Below the pieces are notes generated by a model. It was not told where the DNA came from and did not search any database. It worked only from the letters and a program-made list of their open reading frames with translations. A stretch of DNA of 64,000 nucleotides from Huiozyma naganishii CBS 8797 (taxonomy: Eukaryota > Ascomycota > Saccharomycetes > Saccharomycetales > Saccharomycetaceae). The translations under genes and the position numbers were made by a program. Shown here in pieces: positions 25,742 to 59,281 of the stretch (the first letter of the stretch is position 1; the number at the start of each line of letters is the position of its first letter). The stretch is taken from the NCBI RefSeq assembly GCF_000348985.1, contig NC_035931.1, positions 124,001 through 188,000 on the forward strand, in the 5' to 3' direction.

Positions 25742-26370
25742 CATCCCAAAACAACCACAACAACGAAACCAGGGAACGAAGACGTTTGGATCTCAACAAT
25801 GGCGGGTGCCGTCGAAAACACGCACAACTAACGGTAAATATGGAGAGGGGAGCGCGATCCGAAGATGAAGATGCCAGGGATTCTGCTGTCTGATTCTATG
25901 TGGTCCCCACCACTACCACCACCACTGCTCCCTCGTATACGGCTTCCCTTCACGGTACCTCTTGCCCGTCTATTGTCCAGCCGCCCAGAGATTATACGAG
26001 CTGTCCCGAAAGGGTAAAACTGAAGGAAACGGCCCGTTTAGCACCACAAAAAAAGGGTGGTGTGTATCTGTAACTGTGTCATACTACCGCATCCGGTAAT
26101 GAGACGCGTTTGTCTCGGGTACGAGGCGCGTACACAGGCACACGCACAGGCCAAGATGGGGCCCTTGCTTATACGTTTTAACGATGTCAAGATTGCGCTT
26201 TAAACGAGAGTCGCAGGGATGCGGGAAAAAAAGGGGGAGGGCGATGTTGCCCAAGACGGTATGAGTATAATAGTGCGAAGAGGACAGCACGGGTATACCG
26301 TGACGGAGGTGGCAGTGCCCTGTGCAAAGTACGAGCGACGTGGAGTTTTACTTCAAACTGCCAAGCTCCT

Positions 26371-26384
26371 CCCCCCCCCCCCCC
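26371..26384. repeat. Homopolymer run of 14 C
   Basis: An uninterrupted poly(C) tract in intergenic DNA, unusually long for a yeast genome. Its exact length may be uncertain in any assembly. Confidence 0.85.
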
Positions 26385-28190
26385 AATTTCTTGTTACATC
26401 GAGGTCAACATGTTTCTCAACAGAATGGGAACGTTGAGGGTAAACCCAGTCGTGTTCTCTTTTCGTATTTTCTAAACACAAACCAGACCGAGTCGTAGTA
26501 TCGTACAATCGCGTGTTGCAAAGAAACGTCATTTGGGGGATCACAAAGCCTCATTTCACGGGGGGGTGCTGGAATACTATGGTCCTGGTTTGCTCGCCCA
26601 GTTCATCTTGTTTCTGTATTTGACAAGCATAAAGAAATAGAAACGGATTCCTCTTCTCTAGCCATAGATCAACTTCCGAAGGAAAAGGGAAGAAAAGACT
26701 GAATGGACTGTGCGCTTTCCAATACCCCCCCGTCCCGTTGTCAATCACGTGAATATTGAAAAAGTTACAGATATCTAAGCTTGTCAGCAAACTATTTACC
26801 CAAGTTGCCCCGCTATACAAGTTGCATAAACTGTAAAACGCAAATTCTGGAGAAGAGTTGCGGCCTTGTAACCATGAAGAAGGGGAGTTCCAGTGCGTTA
26901 CACCTTAGAAAACACCAGGACCGTCTCTCATTGGCGTTATTTTTGCAGAAGAATATATCAGATTGTGATCCATCTGTATGCCACCCCCCCTCATCAAGGT
27001 ACACATTTCCGTATTTCAATCATCCCCTTCCCTTCAAAATTAGTCGGAATGTCTAACGTGTATCGATTGTTGATCCTCGTGGTGTAACCATTCTTTGTTC
27101 TGTTGAGTGCAAAACATAACCAGAAAATAGCATAAACGCTTAGCCAAACGACGTACCCCTTTGTGGTCTGACTCTTCTCCTCGTGAGGGCCCTTCATTGC
27201 TCTACGTATCATTGATTCGGCGTGTTTTTGGTAGTCGGTTTCAAAAGTATCTTGCCCTGTATCCGTCTGCTGTTATCGGATATTAAGATGAACAAATATA
27301 TATTCTTGAAAAAAGGGTCCTCCTTTCTATCTCGGTTACCCCGAAGAACGCGCTGGGGAAGTTGTAGAAGTAGCGCCACTAGATGATGATATTGCAAGAT
27401 TAGAGGCAGCGTTGAGTCGCGGGGATAACGGGTCTGGCAATAATTCCAGAGTTATCACCCACGTAGGAGCTCACGCCCAAAGAACACAACACTGGGTGTG
27501 TAACTAACACGGTAAATATCTGTCAGCCTTTCAATGGCGATACTGTGAGTAATACGCCCTGATGTCTATCACTGAATAGTTTTGGGGTCGTGTACGGATT
27601 CTGCCTCCACTTATAGCAGATTGAAAGACGGATGAGCGAGAACGCAAAACTTAGATGTGCAAGATAAACAAGGGTTCCTCACTCCAAACCTTTTTTTCAA
27701 GAGTTCCCACACCAGCGCTCATTAATACAAGGGAAACACTTCCTTTGTCACCATTTTAAAGCGTTATTTTGCACCTTCTGTTGATGAATAGCTCTTGTCA
27801 CATACAAAGGTATCTATTGTAGCGATAAGTAGTGGAATTAAGGCGTATACCACAACCTCAAAAAGCAACCCCCTAAAAACGGTCTAAGTTACGAATGGCA
27901 AAGGTCTATAAACAGTAGACCCCAGGGCTCACGCTTGTGCATCCTCCTCTTCTCACAGAATTAGACGGTACAACAAAATCAAGATTGATTATTCTTTGGA
28001 GATAGTGCTTCCTGTACACCAAGGTTGCACATCCCAATGAATGTAAGTATATTTCTGGTAAAACAAACAATGTGACATCTTTCGGAAACCACGAGGATTT
28101 AACAGTTTGGCAGTTTATTGAAGAGAAATGATTTTAGCAAAGTGGCTATTCACGGTGAACCTCAATTTTTAAAAAAATGAAAACTTGTAT

Positions 28191-28273
28191 GGAGGGTTGG
28201 CCGAGTGGTCTAAGGCGGCAGACTTAAGATCTGTTGGACTGTGTCCGCGCGAGTTCGAACCTCGCATCCTTCA
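28191..28273 (+). tRNA. tL(UAA): tRNA-Leu(UAA)
   Basis: An 83-nt class II tRNA without an intron. The acceptor stem pairs GGAGGGT with ATCCTTC, with A as discriminator. The anticodon loop CTTAAGA gives UAA, there is a long variable arm, and the T-loop is GTTCGAACC. A run of T beginning a few bases downstream is the Pol III terminator. It sits at the boundary of a rearranged block. Confidence 0.97.
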
Positions 28274-29018
28274 GTATTTTTTGCCTTCCCGTTCCCTCTA
28301 TAGCAAGGGCACAACAGCCCCTCCCACTAGCGGCCAATGTACGACCGTGACGAAGTATTTAATATTCCGGCGCTGCGGTCTCTTGTAGTGCACTATCATT
28401 TTTGGTGGGAGCAATCCGTGCCATACTGAGGCCAAAACAATGCTACTTCTGTGATACCGGAAACAACATCAATTCAACGCGAGCACGTCACCGATGCGGA
28501 TCAGCTAACGTTTTTGTATCTGCGTGGATGCAAATTTAATGTACCTATGAGTGTTTTGGGTGAGTTTCTCTCGGTACCTAACCATGTTGCGATACCTATC
28601 TCCTAGTCGAGGTTTGGGGGATGGGAACTGATTAGAATTAACTCCCTCCTTCCCCCTTGGGCATGGAGGTAACACCTAGTTTGCTCTCGGACCAATTGAA
28701 ACGATACTAACTTTCTAACCCATCCTCTGTAATGCCCGTCCTCCAATATAACACTGTTACTCACTGAGAGTAACCACGCAACAAGATCATCCCTAAAGAC
28801 TCGACCCAGTAACCCTTGTCTTCATCGCAACGTCGCGGGGAGTGCCGTGCCCTGATCTGCTGGTGATGTTGCTATACTAGTCACTATCGACGAACGTGGA
28901 GCAATTGTGACTCTCGAGGAAACTATATATAAGGGGCGCAGCATCTTCCCTGTTGGAAAACAGATCTCTTCCCTTACAGTCAACCACTGCAATCAACAAG
29001 CACATCCACACTTGTACC
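28274..29018. other. Intergenic tRNA-Leu to YBR056W orthologue
   Basis: About 745 bases, mostly promoter. A TATATATAAGG box with an adjoining AGGGG-type stress element (STRE) lies at about 28923-28936, some 90 bases before the coding start. A TACTAAC at about 28707 stands alone, and I do not accept an intron from it. Confidence 0.6.
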
Positions 29019-51193: not shown

Positions 51194-52114
51194 TTAACCT
51201 AAGGTGGAGGCACCAGTAATAATATCAACCAACTCGTTCGTGATCACAGCTTGTCTGGTTCTGTTGTACAAGATGGAGTACTTGGTGATCATATCCCCGG
51301 CATTCTTGGAGGCGTTGTCCATGGCGTTTCTTCTAGCAGAAATCTCAGCGGCGTAACCCTTAGCCATGGCGGTCAAAATCTGGTTAGCCAGGTTGTATTC
51401 GAAAAGATCGCTGGGCACGTCCTCGTCGAGATCGATCTCAAACTTGTTGTAAAATGGGGAGTTCACAATCGTCTTCGCACTGTACAATGGTTTCACGCTT
51501 GGTTCGAACGAAATCGAGGAAATTGGGTCGTTATAGTAGATTGTAATCTTCCCGTAACTTTCCAAGTCGAACTCTTTGGCGATTCTTTCCGAGATCAACG
51601 CAGACTCCAAAAACGAAGGCGCATCTTTCCCCACACCGTTGATGGCCAACTTCAAGTTGTCTGGGTGCGATCTCATCAATTGCAATTTCATTTTGTCCCC
51701 AATCGAGATAATATCGCAGTTGGGAGAATCAATGAGGTGGTATCTGACCCTTCTCGCCAACGAGGAGTGGATGGCACCGCACAGACCCTTATCGGAAGTA
51801 ATGGCAATTAGCAACTCCTTGTTAGCCTCGCCACCTTCTTGTTCCACTACTGCCTTTTCTGTTTCCGCGTTCTTAAAGAACTTTTCGTTAGCTTCGTCAA
51901 TTTTGATGGCATTGGCCTTCGCCTTCTCTGCTTTGCTCAGCCTTGTCGACGCAACAATCTTCATAGTCTTGGTAATCTTCTCGATGTTCTTAATCGACTT
52001 CAACCGCATCTCCACCTCCTTTAACGTGGCATAGTTTCTGCACGCGGCACTCCGCGACATAAGGGCGGTCGCACCGCGAGCACGGACAACGTTGGCTACT
52101 GCTCTGGAAAACAT
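51194..52114 (-). CDS. ATP3: ATP synthase gamma subunit, mitochondrial
   Basis: A 306-residue protein (311 in S. cerevisiae), the central rotor stalk of F1-ATPase in the mitochondrial inner membrane. The first 25-30 residues are a basic presequence (MFSRAVANVVRARG). The mature protein begins ATLKEVEMRLKSIKNIEKITKTM, the N-terminal coiled-coil helix, and ends with the conserved C-terminal helix (AMDNASKNAGDMI, ITNELVDIITGA). Position matches YBR039W; CHS2, its usual neighbour, is missing. Confidence 0.98.
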   Translation of the reverse strand: MFSRAVANVVRARGATALMSRSAACRNYATLKEVEMRLKSIKNIEKITKTMKIVASTRLSKAEKAKANAIKIDEANEKFFKNAETEKAVVEQEGGEANKELLIAITSDKGLCGAIHSSLARRVRYHLIDSPNCDIISIGDKMKLQLMRSHPDNLKLAINGVGKDAPSFLESALISERIAKEFDLESYGKITIYYNDPISSISFEPSVKPLYSAKTIVNSPFYNKFEIDLDEDVPSDLFEYNLANQILTAMAKGYAAEISARRNAMDNASKNAGDMITKYSILYNRTRQAVITNELVDIITGASTLG

Positions 52115-52858
52115 GGCTCGTCTATTAGAATCAGCTCCACAGTATGTACAGTCCCCACACGCACAATCAGACAGAGCACAGTGACAGCTGTTCCCTTGAA
52201 CCTAGTCGCTTCCTTCGAACAAGAGGGACAGAGCTTAATACATCTCCATGTTGTCGTTTTTTCCTTTTGGGGGGAGTAAAAGTCGCTACTGTCCGTTTCT
52301 GGAATCTGATTGGCTGCTGACCGTCGGGTAATAAGGACGCTCCCGAAGGGTCGCAGTGCTGTGATGTGTGGTGGGTTGGTCACTGCCTCGAGGACAGGAC
52401 CATGTATGTGGTGCTAGTGGGTATGTCTCTGTTGAACAGTTCTCGTCGAAAAAGCAAACATGGGAAGAGAAACCAATAAATAAAATGGATGATGAACTTG
52501 AGAGGAACTCGAGAGGAACCATTGATCATAGGCCTGGTGTCTCTTATACAGAGACTGATATATTGTTTTTTTGTAACAGAGACTTCTGCTGTCTATAAAA
52601 TTGTACCAATTCCGAAGCTTTTTCACCTACTTAAGAGCCTCTTCATCTCTTACTGTTTTACTCGATCCAGCGATATATCCCAGCTAAGAGCCACATATCT
52701 CATGCAAATGCATTGAGACAAAGCTTTATGCCGTTATCTTTCAGTATAACGCTATTAAATAAGTGCAAAAGGACTGTGTGGGATTTCGTGGCAATATATA
52801 CCTCAAACAAAGAAATATATGCTGACCATACATATTTTCAAAAAAATGTAATTATACA
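52115..52858. other. Intergenic ATP3 to tRNA-Gly
   Basis: About 744 bases holding the ATP3 promoter. I see no gene in it. Confidence 0.6.
52307..52313 (-). promoter_or_regulatory. HAP-complex (CCAAT) site upstream of ATP3
   Basis: CCAATCA on the minus strand, about 195 bases before the ATP3 start, matches the Hap2/3/4/5 consensus used by respiratory genes. Confidence 0.5.
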
Positions 52859-52929
52859 GCGCAAGTGGTTTAGTGGTAAAATCCAACGTTGCCATCGTTG
52901 GGCCCCCGGTTCGATTCCGGGCTTGCGCA
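52859..52929 (+). tRNA. tG(GCC): tRNA-Gly(GCC)
   Basis: A 71-nt tRNA without an intron. The acceptor stem pairs GCGCAAG with CTTGCGC, with A as discriminator. The anticodon loop gives GCC, and the T-arm is CCCGGTTCGATTCCGGG. A run of eight T immediately after it is the Pol III terminator. Confidence 0.97.
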
Positions 52930-53489
52930 TTTTTTTTGGCGCAGATCTTCCTCGAGATGACGCTCAAATTTTTCCTGGTCCTATACATGTATAATCAAGC
53001 TGCGACCGTATACGCCTACAATGATTCTAATACAAACACACCTCTCCCCAACTGCTACTACTTGTTGAGTTACACAATTTTCGTCTTGGAGAAGGCCTGA
53101 ATTCAAGTTATTGCCGGCCATATACAATTGCGCGTTTTACAGACTATATACCCTGCTGGATACGCCTCACATTACAATCAGGAAGTACTTGTTATGGAAG
53201 AAGATTTATGAATGACAATAGGGCTAGGTGACATGATTTTTCTTCCCGAAGACGGGAAGAACGTTTTCTAAATCTCATAGCAGAACTTAAGTCGTTCACC
53301 ATATAACTCTGCCAGTGTATTTGAGACTGTACATATGTTGGAGAAAATACGAACAGCCAATGATACTGGGGTTTAAAGTTAATTGACTCTTGTTTTGAAA
53401 CTTGAACAAGATGAGAACGGGAAGACGTGGAACTGAAACGCGTCAAGACTTTTTATACTTGACATTTCCCATCGAAGGCTCTTCATCCT
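52930..53489. other. Intergenic between tRNA-Gly and the candidate telomerase RNA
   Basis: About 560 bases. A perfect 9-bp hairpin with a 4-base loop lies at 53240-53261. Near the right end are an MCB element (ACGCGT, 53438-53443) and a TATA-like TATACTT (53454-53460). In S. cerevisiae a box H/ACA snoRNA gene (snR161) lies close to TLC1; I could not identify it here. Confidence 0.5.
53438..53460 (+). promoter_or_regulatory. MCB element and TATA-like box before the candidate TLC1
   Basis: ACGCGT (MCB, Mbp1/Swi6 or Swi4 site) at 53438-53443 and TATACTT at 53454-53460. The TLC1 promoter of S. cerevisiae is reported to respond to the G1/S factors Swi4, Mbp1 and Swi6, so this pairing fits a telomerase RNA promoter. 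Confidence 0.45.
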
Positions 53490-53945
53490 TCGGGTAATCG
53501 CTCTCTCAATTTTCATGGGCTTTTTTTCTTTCCATCGCAGTAACTGCTTTGGCACTTCTTGTTTCGGGTTTGGGCATTTTCGATTTGCAGTTCTTGTCTG
53601 TTCTCTGGTGAATCAAGGAAGTGTACTGAAGTGAATGGAGGTATTGTGTACGAAGTGGAGACTGTGATATTTTGCAGCGGCCAATTTCAATGGAATTCAG
53701 GACATTTTGTGCTGTGTGATTTTTTGGTGTGTTTTTTTGACTCTCTTCCCATCGTTTCTATTTTCCCTTGGTCATCCTCGTCAATGTTGATGAAAGTATG
53801 CTCCAACGAGTTCTTTTTCTAGGCAGCCGGACAAGATTTATTTCCCTCTCCTGGGACTATTTTCTTTTTTCTTTTGTTAAAGAGAGGTACCAGTGGATTG
53901 AAGTTTTATAGGTAGCCTAATTCACCTGAAACGTTCAATTTCATA

Positions 53946-53961
53946 ATCTACAGGAGTAGAT
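53946..53961 (+). other. Hairpin upstream of the candidate template
   Basis: ATCTAC, loop AGGA, GTAGAT: a perfect 6-bp hairpin ending 26 bases before the proposed template. Budding-yeast telomerase RNAs use a stem just 5' of the template as template boundary, so this is a possible boundary element. Confidence 0.35.
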
Positions 53962-53987
53962 ATAGGGTTGGGAAATAAATCTTATCA

Positions 53988-53998
53988 ACACCCAGACA
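53988..53998 (+). other. Candidate telomerase template
   Basis: ACACCCAGACA has the terminal direct repeat ACA...ACA with an 8-nt period, exactly what a template needs to add 8-nt repeats with a 3-nt realignment. The product would be (TCTGGGTG)n. The same sequence also resembles a Rap1 site, which is expected because Rap1 binds telomere repeats of this type. Confidence 0.5.
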
Positions 53999-54310
53999 AG
54001 GCCAAGTGAACTCACTTGTTACAGCCGTTAGTGCTATTAAGCAATGAAGAGACAACGATGGAGAAGGAAAACTAAGGTGTGGTACGTTGTTGTTTCAGGA
54101 AGGATACCAATTTTTTTGTGTGATAAGGGTTTGTTGCCCGTCTACTGATGGAGGATTGTATTGTCCTCATCGGTAAATGGAATATGAGGAGAGTATAAAC
54201 TGGGGTGTCTCAAACGTTGGCTTTACCAAAAAGTTGATTCGAGTTTTATGATATTTGTTCAAATCTTAATCGTCCCATTTATTTCGGATTTGCGATAGAC
54301 TTACAATAGG

Positions 54311-54344
54311 AGGTTTCTCTTTTATTTTTTATTTCTTGAAACTT
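54311..54344 (+). other. U-rich-loop hairpin, possible pseudoknot stem
   Basis: AGGTTTC at 54311-54317 pairs with GAAACTT at 54338-54344 (one G-U pair), enclosing a 20-base loop of T, C and only two A. An A-rich stretch TTATAAAA at about 54401 could pair with the loop. The distance of about 320 nt downstream of the template is compatible with the TLC1 pseudoknot. Confidence 0.35.
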
Positions 54345-55095
54345 CAGTACCATCCTGTCTGTCGCATGGATAATCCCTGTATAATGGATGATTGACAGTT
54401 TTATAAAATTGTTTGATAATGGCCCCGCACGTGTTTTGGTCCTCTTTTCATTGTCCTAGATTGGAAGCAACTTTTTATCCGATTGGTACCTTTCCGTCTG
54501 TGTTCCTATTTTTTTAGCTGTTTTTCGGTATCGACAAATAGCCAAAAAGGTACGGTTATCGCAAGGTTTTCTTTTTAGTGAAACTTTCTAAACCTCATAA
54601 ATAGTAAAATTCATTTACTGCAAAGAATAAAGGACTCTGTTTCAACACCTTTCGTCACTGTGCCTTTACGAGGGAGATCTAGGAAGATTGGAAGAGGGAA
54701 GGTCCAAAAAACCACATAAAAAAACCTGTTCATTGTTGATGTCGTTGTAGAAAATCACATTCAGTTTTCACCATATTTCGTTTTATTTCTGTCACTAAGT
54801 CTGTGTTGTCCCCCTTGATGACAATGGGAAAAGTGGAAACAGCCTAAGAAACTTTCCATTGGTTTCGAAGTCCCTTCCAAAGAAGGTGTTGCTTCTCAAT
54901 GGAGGGTCAATATGGTATCCACTTCGAATTCATTCCTATTTTTTTTCATTCCCCGTTTCTTTCTCCGAATCGAATTCGAAGGTTTTCTTTAGGAAGGATT
55001 CATATGCTCTTTTGCTTGTCTTTGTAAGTTTTTTCCTATGTAAAGGGAGTGAAACTCAGACTCTCTTTCTCAAATTTTTGGCACCCATTTCCGAT

Positions 55096-55420
55096 GAATT
55101 TGTTCATCGCTACTTATCTTTATGTATATATATACATATATATATATATATATTTCTATGACCAACTTTGTAAGTTACGAAAGTTGCTTATATCTGGGTT
55201 GTGTCATTCGAGGAAACAAGACACCCACTTTCAATAAGTCAATCACGACCTTGGGAAACGAGGTGTTGTCTGACTCAGCGGCACCCTCTATGGAACTTGA
55301 ACAAATATAAATACTTGAGGGAAAAAAATCAAAAGATTAAGGAATTCATGAGGGTGTACTACCCTGGAAGAACAGTAATCTTCCTCGTAGTAGACTGCAA
55401 TCACATCAGTTCCTTTCGCA
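55096..55420. other. PDX3 promoter region
   Basis: About 325 bases. It contains an alternating TA tract (about 55124-55153) and a bulged hairpin at 55196-55226 (GGGTTGTGTC with GACACCC). TATAAATA lies at about 55306. No gene is seen. Confidence 0.6.
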
Positions 55421-56107
55421 ATGGATAGCGACAAAGATAGAACGCAGACACCCATCATTTTTGCGCCCGAGACTTACCAGTACGATAAGTATGAATTGAA
55501 CGAGTCACAATTGAGCAAAGATCCAATTGATCAGTTTAGCAAATGGTTCCAGGAGGCTAAGGACGACCCGCGTGAAACTCTGCCCGAGGCAATCACTTTC
55601 TGCTCTGCTGAATTGCCCAGCGGGAAAGTTTCCTCCAGAGTGCTGCTATTTAAGGAGTTGGACCACAGAGGGTTCACCATCTATTCCAACTGGGGCACCT
55701 CAGGGAAGGCGCACGATATAGCGACGAACCCGCATGCGGGTATGAATTTCTTCTGGAAGGACATGCAAAGACAAGTCAGAGTCGAGGGGAACACCGAGTT
55801 TGTCAATCGTGAAACTTCCGAAAGGTACTTCAAGACAAGACCAAGAGGCTCCAAGATTGGTGCCTGGGCCTCAGAGCAATCGCACGTCATCAAGGATAGA
55901 CAAGAACTGGATGAGGCGACGAAGAAGAACACTGCCAGATTTGAAGGCGTGGAGGATGTCCCATGCCCTCCATACTGGGGTGGGTTGAGAATTGTCCCCA
56001 TGAAGATCGAGTTCTGGCAGGGAAGACTCAACCGTCTTCATGACCGATTCGTTTACGAAAGGGCATCAGAAAACGATCCTTGGGAAATTTTCAGACTGTC
56101 ACCATGA
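55421..56107 (+). CDS. PDX3: Pyridoxamine/pyridoxine 5'-phosphate oxidase
   Basis: A 228-residue FMN enzyme, the same length as in S. cerevisiae, that oxidises pyridoxine- and pyridoxamine-phosphate to pyridoxal 5'-phosphate in the cytosol. Conserved FMN and substrate segments are SSRVLLFKELDHRGFTIYSN near residues 67-86, FFWKDMQRQVRVEG near 110-123, and the C-terminal signature MKIEFWQGRLNRLHDRFVYER. Position before HMT1 matches YBR035C. Confidence 0.98.
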   Translation: MDSDKDRTQTPIIFAPETYQYDKYELNESQLSKDPIDQFSKWFQEAKDDPRETLPEAITFCSAELPSGKVSSRVLLFKELDHRGFTIYSNWGTSGKAHDIATNPHAGMNFFWKDMQRQVRVEGNTEFVNRETSERYFKTRPRGSKIGAWASEQSHVIKDRQELDEATKKNTARFEGVEDVPCPPYWGGLRIVPMKIEFWQGRLNRLHDRFVYERASENDPWEIFRLSP

Positions 56108-57977: not shown

Positions 57978-59171
<1,194 letters not shown>

Positions 59172-59281
59172 TTATATTTGTGAAAATTTTCGTTGACGAC
59201 TTTGAAAGAAAAAAAATTTTCACAAAAGTTGCGTCCATCTCAAATTTGAACAAAAAAAAAGATAAAAATTTCCAAAAAAAC

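Follow-up and report, generated by a model that had tools for sequence, protein, structure and literature searches.

A 2018 survey of 53 Saccharomycetaceae reported telomerase RNA in 46; according to its text, hits in Kazachstania could not be confirmed, for which fast evolution was blamed (PMC6115765). The same source describes the Sm-binding site AATTTTTGG as perfectly conserved in the telomerase RNAs of much of the family, and GCUA as conserved in most known Ku sites (PMC6115765). By its account the Ku hairpin is not a defining feature, having gone unrecovered in Kluyveromyces and Eremothecium and been judged likely absent in C. castellii (PMC6115765). The telomere unit of Naumovozyma castellii is reported as TCTGGGTG, which is the unit predicted in this study. 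Reported repeats in Kazachstania are WGTATGGG in K. pintolopesii and TCACGTGGAG in K. humilis, so telomere repeats vary within the genus. We found no Kazachstania telomerase RNA in print in the open-access literature. In S. cerevisiae the neighbourhood of the telomerase RNA gene, TLC1, consists of PDX3, HMT1, ATP3 and snR161, with CSG2, SCO1 and CHS2 also lying between TLC1 and ATP3.

We analyzed a 64-kb stretch of DNA, referred to here as the window, which corresponds to positions 124,001-188,000 of contig 10 in a genome of 10.85 Mb assembled in 13 contigs. Our results indicate that the plus strand at ~53,490-55,091 of the window likely encodes telomerase RNA (TLC1).

Genomic context of the candidate gene

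By their Pfam domains, the genes around the candidate encode, in order, a CST26-type acyltransferase and a FAT1-type AMP-binding enzyme, followed by FIG1, ATP3, PDX3, HMT1, RPL4 and TRP1, all named after their S. cerevisiae counterparts. Pfam and Rfam matches identify ATP3, snR161, PDX3 and HMT1 as the genes flanking the candidate, a conserved neighbourhood.

51194..52114, minus strand: ATP3 (ATP synthase gamma; Pfam PF00231), syntenic neighbour on the far side of the candidate
52,859-52,929, plus strand: tRNA-Gly, between ATP3 and PDX3
53202..53382, minus strand: H/ACA snoRNA snR161 (Rfam RF01237, 75.6 bits, cut-off 50), divergent neighbour
53490..55091, plus strand: predicted telomerase RNA gene (TLC1), ~1,600 nt, both ends inferred
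55421..56107, plus strand: PDX3 (pyridoxamine-phosphate oxidase; Pfam PF10590, PF01243), downstream neighbour on the same strand as the candidate

The first-pass annotation of this DNA had described a 2.5-kb gap without a gene before PDX3. Such a gap does run from tRNA-Gly to PDX3, but it contains snR161, which had been missed and which Rfam identifies. No telomerase model of Rfam matched, which counts against the candidate. Because snR161 occupies 53,202-53,382, the free gap is 53,383-55,420 (2,038 bp). ATG-started frames in 53,490-55,091 are at most 42 aa long on either strand. The size of the gap is unremarkable by itself, since the window has other 2-3 kb stretches without a 100-aa frame. 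Another such stretch, of ~3 kb (window ~25893-28980), contains tRNA-Leu.

A place beside PDX3, as in S. cerevisiae, had also been claimed for the gene. The place holds (ATP3, a gap with snR161, PDX3, HMT1), but the direction is the opposite one. Here the candidate and PDX3 share one strand, and the candidate points toward PDX3, while snR161 lies upstream of it in divergent orientation. In S. cerevisiae TLC1 is listed on chromosome II, plus strand (PMC6115765). PDX3 lies there on the opposite strand, and TLC1 points away from it with snR161 in between. Position is conserved relative to S. cerevisiae TLC1 and direction relative to PDX3 is not. Among relatives of the window's TRP1 for which the organism is given, Kazachstania africana scores best (285 bits, 62% identity), placed after seven hits that carry no organism entry; Naumovozyma dairenensis (280 bits, 56%) comes next, then Nakaseomyces glabratus (275 bits, 61%). 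The host genus is likely Kazachstania. An alpha1-type gene close to the left end of contig 3 agrees with KNAG_0C00150, and K. naganishii is a tentative species assignment.

Predicted template and template-boundary helix

Template boundaries in yeasts are reported to be stable helices that almost adjoin the template (PMC3603654). The candidate contains a template-like segment and, upstream of it, the two arms of a long helix.

53830..53846, plus strand: 5' arm of a template-boundary-like helix, GACAAGATTTATTTCCC, 16 of 17 positions paired
53970..53986, plus strand: 3' arm of this helix, GGGAAATAAATCTTATC, ending 1 nt before the template
53988..53998, plus strand: predicted template, ACACCCAGACA, identified by sequence

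The predicted template consists of one 8-nt unit plus a 3-nt overlap, and this is its sole copy in the 64-kb window. GACAAGATTTATTTCCC and GGGAAATAAATCTTATC make up the longest inverted repeat in 52,930-55,420, a TA tract aside. At that position, 14 contiguous perfect pairs were obtained in none of 5,000 shuffles, and 12 or more pairs in one of 5,000. Across the window, 14 contiguous perfect pairs occur at 8 of 18,200 sampled positions, which represent two places, the candidate included. Among the sampled positions, the second of these places, its 14 pairs again lying within 300 nt, is at ~59165-59233 of the window, between RPL4 and tRNA-Thr. In a laxer energy test that allows G-U pairs and one mismatch, 5 of 1,000 shuffles equalled the boundary helix, and a helix in the same position accompanies 1 of the 27 other genomic ACACCCAGACA sites. 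Its pair probability is at least 0.96 in four contexts. The template is mostly unpaired in the local fold (53,820-54,100) and mostly paired in the whole 1.6-kb fold. In the proposed RNA, Est2 would copy ACACCCAGACA into chromosome-end repeats of TCTGGGTG type, and the helix would mark the 5' limit of the template, as a template boundary element, so that copying ends after a single repeat.

Predicted Sm site and three-way junction

Near the predicted 3' end, the candidate contains the Sm consensus and, just upstream, a predicted three-way junction.

54901..55066, plus strand: predicted three-way junction, 166 nt (fold)
54,901-54,908/55,059-55,066, plus strand: junction stem 1
54,909, plus strand: AATA at the junction, first linker
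54,910-55,005, plus strand: junction stem 2, with a 10-bp perfect part at 54,922-54,931/54,972-54,981
55,027-55,056, plus strand: junction stem 3
55073..55081, plus strand: predicted Sm-binding site AATTTTTGG (consensus from PMC6115765)

The Sm site lies 1,074 nt from the template, and the predicted junction ends 6 nt upstream of it. AATTTTTGG has a single copy across both strands of 52,115-55,420 and three copies in the 64-kb window. The 10.85-Mb genome contains 252 copies, counted on both strands, from which about 0.05 would be expected in the 2,038-bp gap.

We searched for junctions with a descriptor that combines a closing helix of at least 7 pairs, a span of 140-185 and AATA at the junction. 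The descriptor was tuned after its first version had missed the candidate region owing to a 2-bp helix in the fold, and helices of fewer than 4 pairs were then ignored. So defined, it is matched by 2 of 3,000 dinucleotide-shuffled sequences and by 9 of 6,382 window tiles, the latter amounting to six places on both strands, the candidate included. As controls we took, from the 252 genomic copies of AATTTTTGG, the first 40, which lie on contigs 1 and 2: a junction with AATA was present upstream of none of the 40 and one without AATA upstream of a single site. The fold itself depends on the stretch that is folded. In four other cuts of the region, the junction is absent from two. The probability of stem 1 is 0.97 in 54,895-55,072 and 0.49 in 54,880-55,091, and it drops to 0.00-0.01 once the folded stretch is longer and begins at or upstream of 54,860. 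A competing helix of 12 pairs, three of them G-U, is formed by 54,851-54,862/54,896-54,907 and may represent either a switch or an artefact of the folding. Since stem 1 is lost in the longer folds and the junction is missing from two of the four cuts, the three-way junction remains a prediction. If formed, the 166-nt junction would bind Est2, and Sm proteins on AATTTTTGG would stop 3' trimming and so fix the mature end near 55,091.

The Sm site and junction also bear on the strand. A telomerase RNA encoded in the same gap on the minus strand, with its template near GACACCCCAG at ~54,200-54,210, would have the direction relative to PDX3 that TLC1 has in S. cerevisiae, and a C-rich segment is present there (CACCC, minus strand, 54,207). 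Against it, AATTTTTGG is absent from the minus strand of 52,115-55,420, and among the tiles no AATA three-way junction falls on that strand of the same interval. With neither Sm site nor junction on that strand in 52,115-55,420, we rejected a minus-strand gene, an arrangement that we consider scarcely credible. The template, its boundary helix, the junction and the Sm site share the plus strand and follow one another in the expected order.

We also considered the rest of the genome. A telomerase reverse transcriptase has one match there (PF12009, contig 3, 1,148,182-1,148,565, 125.9 bits), with an 885-codon open frame. The real telomerase RNA gene might lie elsewhere, for example in a duplicate region left by whole-genome duplication, in which case the stretch at PDX3 would be a degenerate duplicate or a long non-coding RNA of a different kind. 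One SCO1-type gene neighbours TLC1 in S. cerevisiae, and SCO1-type genes are found here on contig 11; the structure scan covered the window and selected pieces of the genome. The two 3.4-kb loci around these SCO1-type genes contain neither AATTTTTGG nor CACCCAGA, and the boundary helix of the candidate is intact, not decayed. We regard a location elsewhere as very improbable.

Telomere repeats and related genomic sites

The first-pass annotation had proposed reading the telomere repeat from the chromosome ends. We searched the terminal 300 bases at each of 26 contig ends for all 8 rotations of the predicted TCTGGGTG repeat and found it at 0 of 26, and for this reason the template is unproven. 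Within the same 300 bases, a tandem array occurs at one of the 26 ends, the right end of contig 9. It is composed of a G- and T-rich 37-bp unit in 5.6 copies (~628,376-628,580) and reaches the contig end, where the last 400 bases are 74% T+G. Allowing up to 2 mismatches, the unit is found at 11 places genome-wide, 6 of which are the contig 9 array and 5 of which are single, with 2 mismatches each, compared with 3 for the reversed control; no array of it was found elsewhere in the genome. The longest word shared by the complement of the unit and the candidate is 9 nt, and ACACCCAGACA does not specify the unit. Were the 37-bp unit the telomere, the predicted template would be wrong, and the array therefore lowers our confidence in the telomerase RNA reading slightly. 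It is possibly a subtelomeric element or satellite rather than a telomere; N. castellii subtelomeres are likewise reported to contain TG-rich elements.

Genome-wide, ACACCCAGACA has 28 copies, versus 10 for its reversed control, and ACACCCAGACACCC with at most 1 mismatch has 46, again versus 10. This excess is expected if Rap1 sites are of TCTGGGTG type, and we infer from it indirect support for telomeres of that type. Interstitial double TCTGGGTG-type units are located on contig 9 at 257,277-257,293 and on contig 6 at 484,690, with no open frame longer than 96 codons running through them. The contig 9 site, a 16-base telomere-like match beside TTAGGG and CACGTG motifs, looks like a promoter-type element, presumably of Rap1/Tbf1 type.

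The same excess opens another reading of the candidate, namely that it is an ordinary long intergenic region in which ACACCCAGACA would serve as a promoter site of Rap1 type, AATTTTTGG and the hairpins would have arisen by chance and any transcript would be noise upstream of PDX3. Rap1 binds telomere-like DNA, 27 other copies of ACACCCAGACA are scattered through the genome, and the window offers both other stretches without long frames and AATA three-way junctions at five other places. What distinguishes the candidate is the base that follows ACACCCAGACA. In the 27 other copies it is C in 22 (giving ACACCCAGACAC), T in 3, G in 2 and A in none, whereas in the candidate it is A, which could fit a template that ends there. 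Also against this reading, the template and its boundary helix are co-oriented with the junction and the Sm site, all in the expected order, and a junction together with an Sm site was seen in 0 of the 40 control sites. An intergenic origin of these features is in our view improbable, and we continue with the telomerase RNA.

Hairpins downstream of the template

Three further elements of the predicted RNA lie between the template and the junction.

54143..54175, plus strand: hairpin of 12 bp, one G bulged out, with an additional U-G pair next to the loop, 144 nt after the template
54310..54345, plus strand: hairpin GAGGTTTC/GAAACTTC closing a U-rich loop of 20 nt, candidate for pseudoknot stem 1 / CS3 (fold)
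54622..54634, plus strand: A-rich AAAGAATAAAGGA, candidate CS4 (weak, from pairing with the U-rich loop)

The stability of the first hairpin was equalled in 0 of 500 shuffles of 54,141-54,180 and in 2 of 500 shuffles of 54,130-54,200, and its pair probability ranges from 0.55 to 1.0. Est1 sites in two Naumovozyma species are reported to start 127 and 180 nt after the template (PMC6115765). Judging from its position, as in the Naumovozyma RNAs, the hairpin at 54,143-54,175 would bind Est1. The hairpin with the U-rich loop has a pair probability of 0.96-0.97 in all three contexts, and 13 contiguous pairs, 2 of them G-U, are possible between its loop and AAAGAATAAAGGA. It would form half of the catalytic pseudoknot.

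Two other elements were looked for. Upstream of the template, in 53,490-53,987, the plus strand contains no GCTA, the DNA form of the motif conserved in most known Ku sites. For a helix enclosing the core, stems from 53,790-53,829 were paired with the partner stretch 54,800-54,900 only, and 774 of 1,000 shuffles were equally good.

Promoter-like elements and predicted transcript ends

53438..53459, plus strand: promoter-like MCB-like ACGCGT (53,438-53,443) and TATA-like TTTTTATACT (53,450-53,459), of presumed function
55092..55109, plus strand: 7-bp hairpin CGATGAA/TTCATCG just beyond the predicted 3' end (sequence and fold), of presumed function

ACGCGT has a single copy in 52,115-55,420 and eight in the 64-kb window. 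snR161 and the candidate are divergent, and the ~110 bp between them contain the MCB and TATA-like elements. RNA polymerase II would transcribe the gene from this promoter (53,438-53,460), beside divergent snR161. For the 5' end of the candidate we retained the position given by the first-pass annotation, and the 3' end was placed 10 nt past the Sm site, following PMC6115765. The hairpin at 55092..55109 is followed by a TATATA-rich tract at 55,125-55,153, which would provide a longer precursor with its poly(A) signal.

Discussion

The plus-strand gene of ~1.6 kb that the first-pass annotation had proposed as a telomerase RNA is supported by the Sm site, by the size of the junction and its spacing upstream of that site, and by a boundary helix 1 nt from the template. 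Its strand, limits and template could be kept. A sequence scan also recovered the MCB element, the TATA-like box, the template-like segment, the U-rich hairpin and the Sm-like site in the order in which they had been listed, and the spacings given were borne out, with the template ~498 nt from 53,490 and the U-rich hairpin 311 nt further. Most of the weight is carried by the template-boundary helix and the three-way junction, both of which had gone unnoticed.

If the identification is true, it supplies a telomerase RNA for Kazachstania, in which a dedicated survey was unable to confirm one. With its limits, template and junction, the candidate can serve as a seed for finding telomerase RNA across Kazachstania, and it makes the co-evolution of template and telomere repeat testable in this genus, where repeats vary. 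A more far-reaching interpretation is that this is the first Kazachstania telomerase RNA, inverted in place next to a conserved snoRNA, and that the canonical Ku hairpin has been lost from it; this lineage would then recruit telomerase without Ku-RNA binding. We put this combination forward tentatively, as doubtful though possible.

Relative to S. cerevisiae TLC1, the candidate differs in its direction, which is opposite with respect to PDX3, and in lying on the other side of snR161. It further differs in the regular 8-nt repeat that is predicted for it, as opposed to the TG1-3 repeat of S. cerevisiae. The two RNAs resemble each other in an AAU5GG-type Sm site near the 3' end, as reported for S. 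cerevisiae, and in a helix adjoining the template, as in yeasts generally (PMC3603654). With Candida (Nakaseomyces) glabrata the candidate shares the Sm site and an enlarged part between template and Sm site, which is 1,699 nt in that species; a three-way junction is predicted in the candidate, whereas the source describes no plausible one in C. glabrata (PMC6115765).

The comparison with Naumovozyma was made from published features. The candidate differs from the N. castellii and N. dairenensis RNAs in having no GCUA Ku motif upstream of the template. The reported distances from template to Sm site are 656 and 692 nt, against 1,074 nt here, a value intermediate between these and that of C. 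glabrata, and the template matches are 14 and 13 nt, against 11 nt (PMC6115765). The candidate has the same order of template, Est1 region, three-way junction and Sm site as TLC1 of N. castellii and N. dairenensis. Its predicted junction, at 166 nt, is close in length to theirs (162 nt in N. castellii and 164 nt in N. dairenensis; PMC6115765 Table 1). The gap between junction and Sm site, computed from the same table, is 20 nt in N. castellii and 6 nt in N. dairenensis, and 6 nt in the candidate. The telomere unit reported for N. castellii, TCTGGGTG, is the one predicted from the candidate template.
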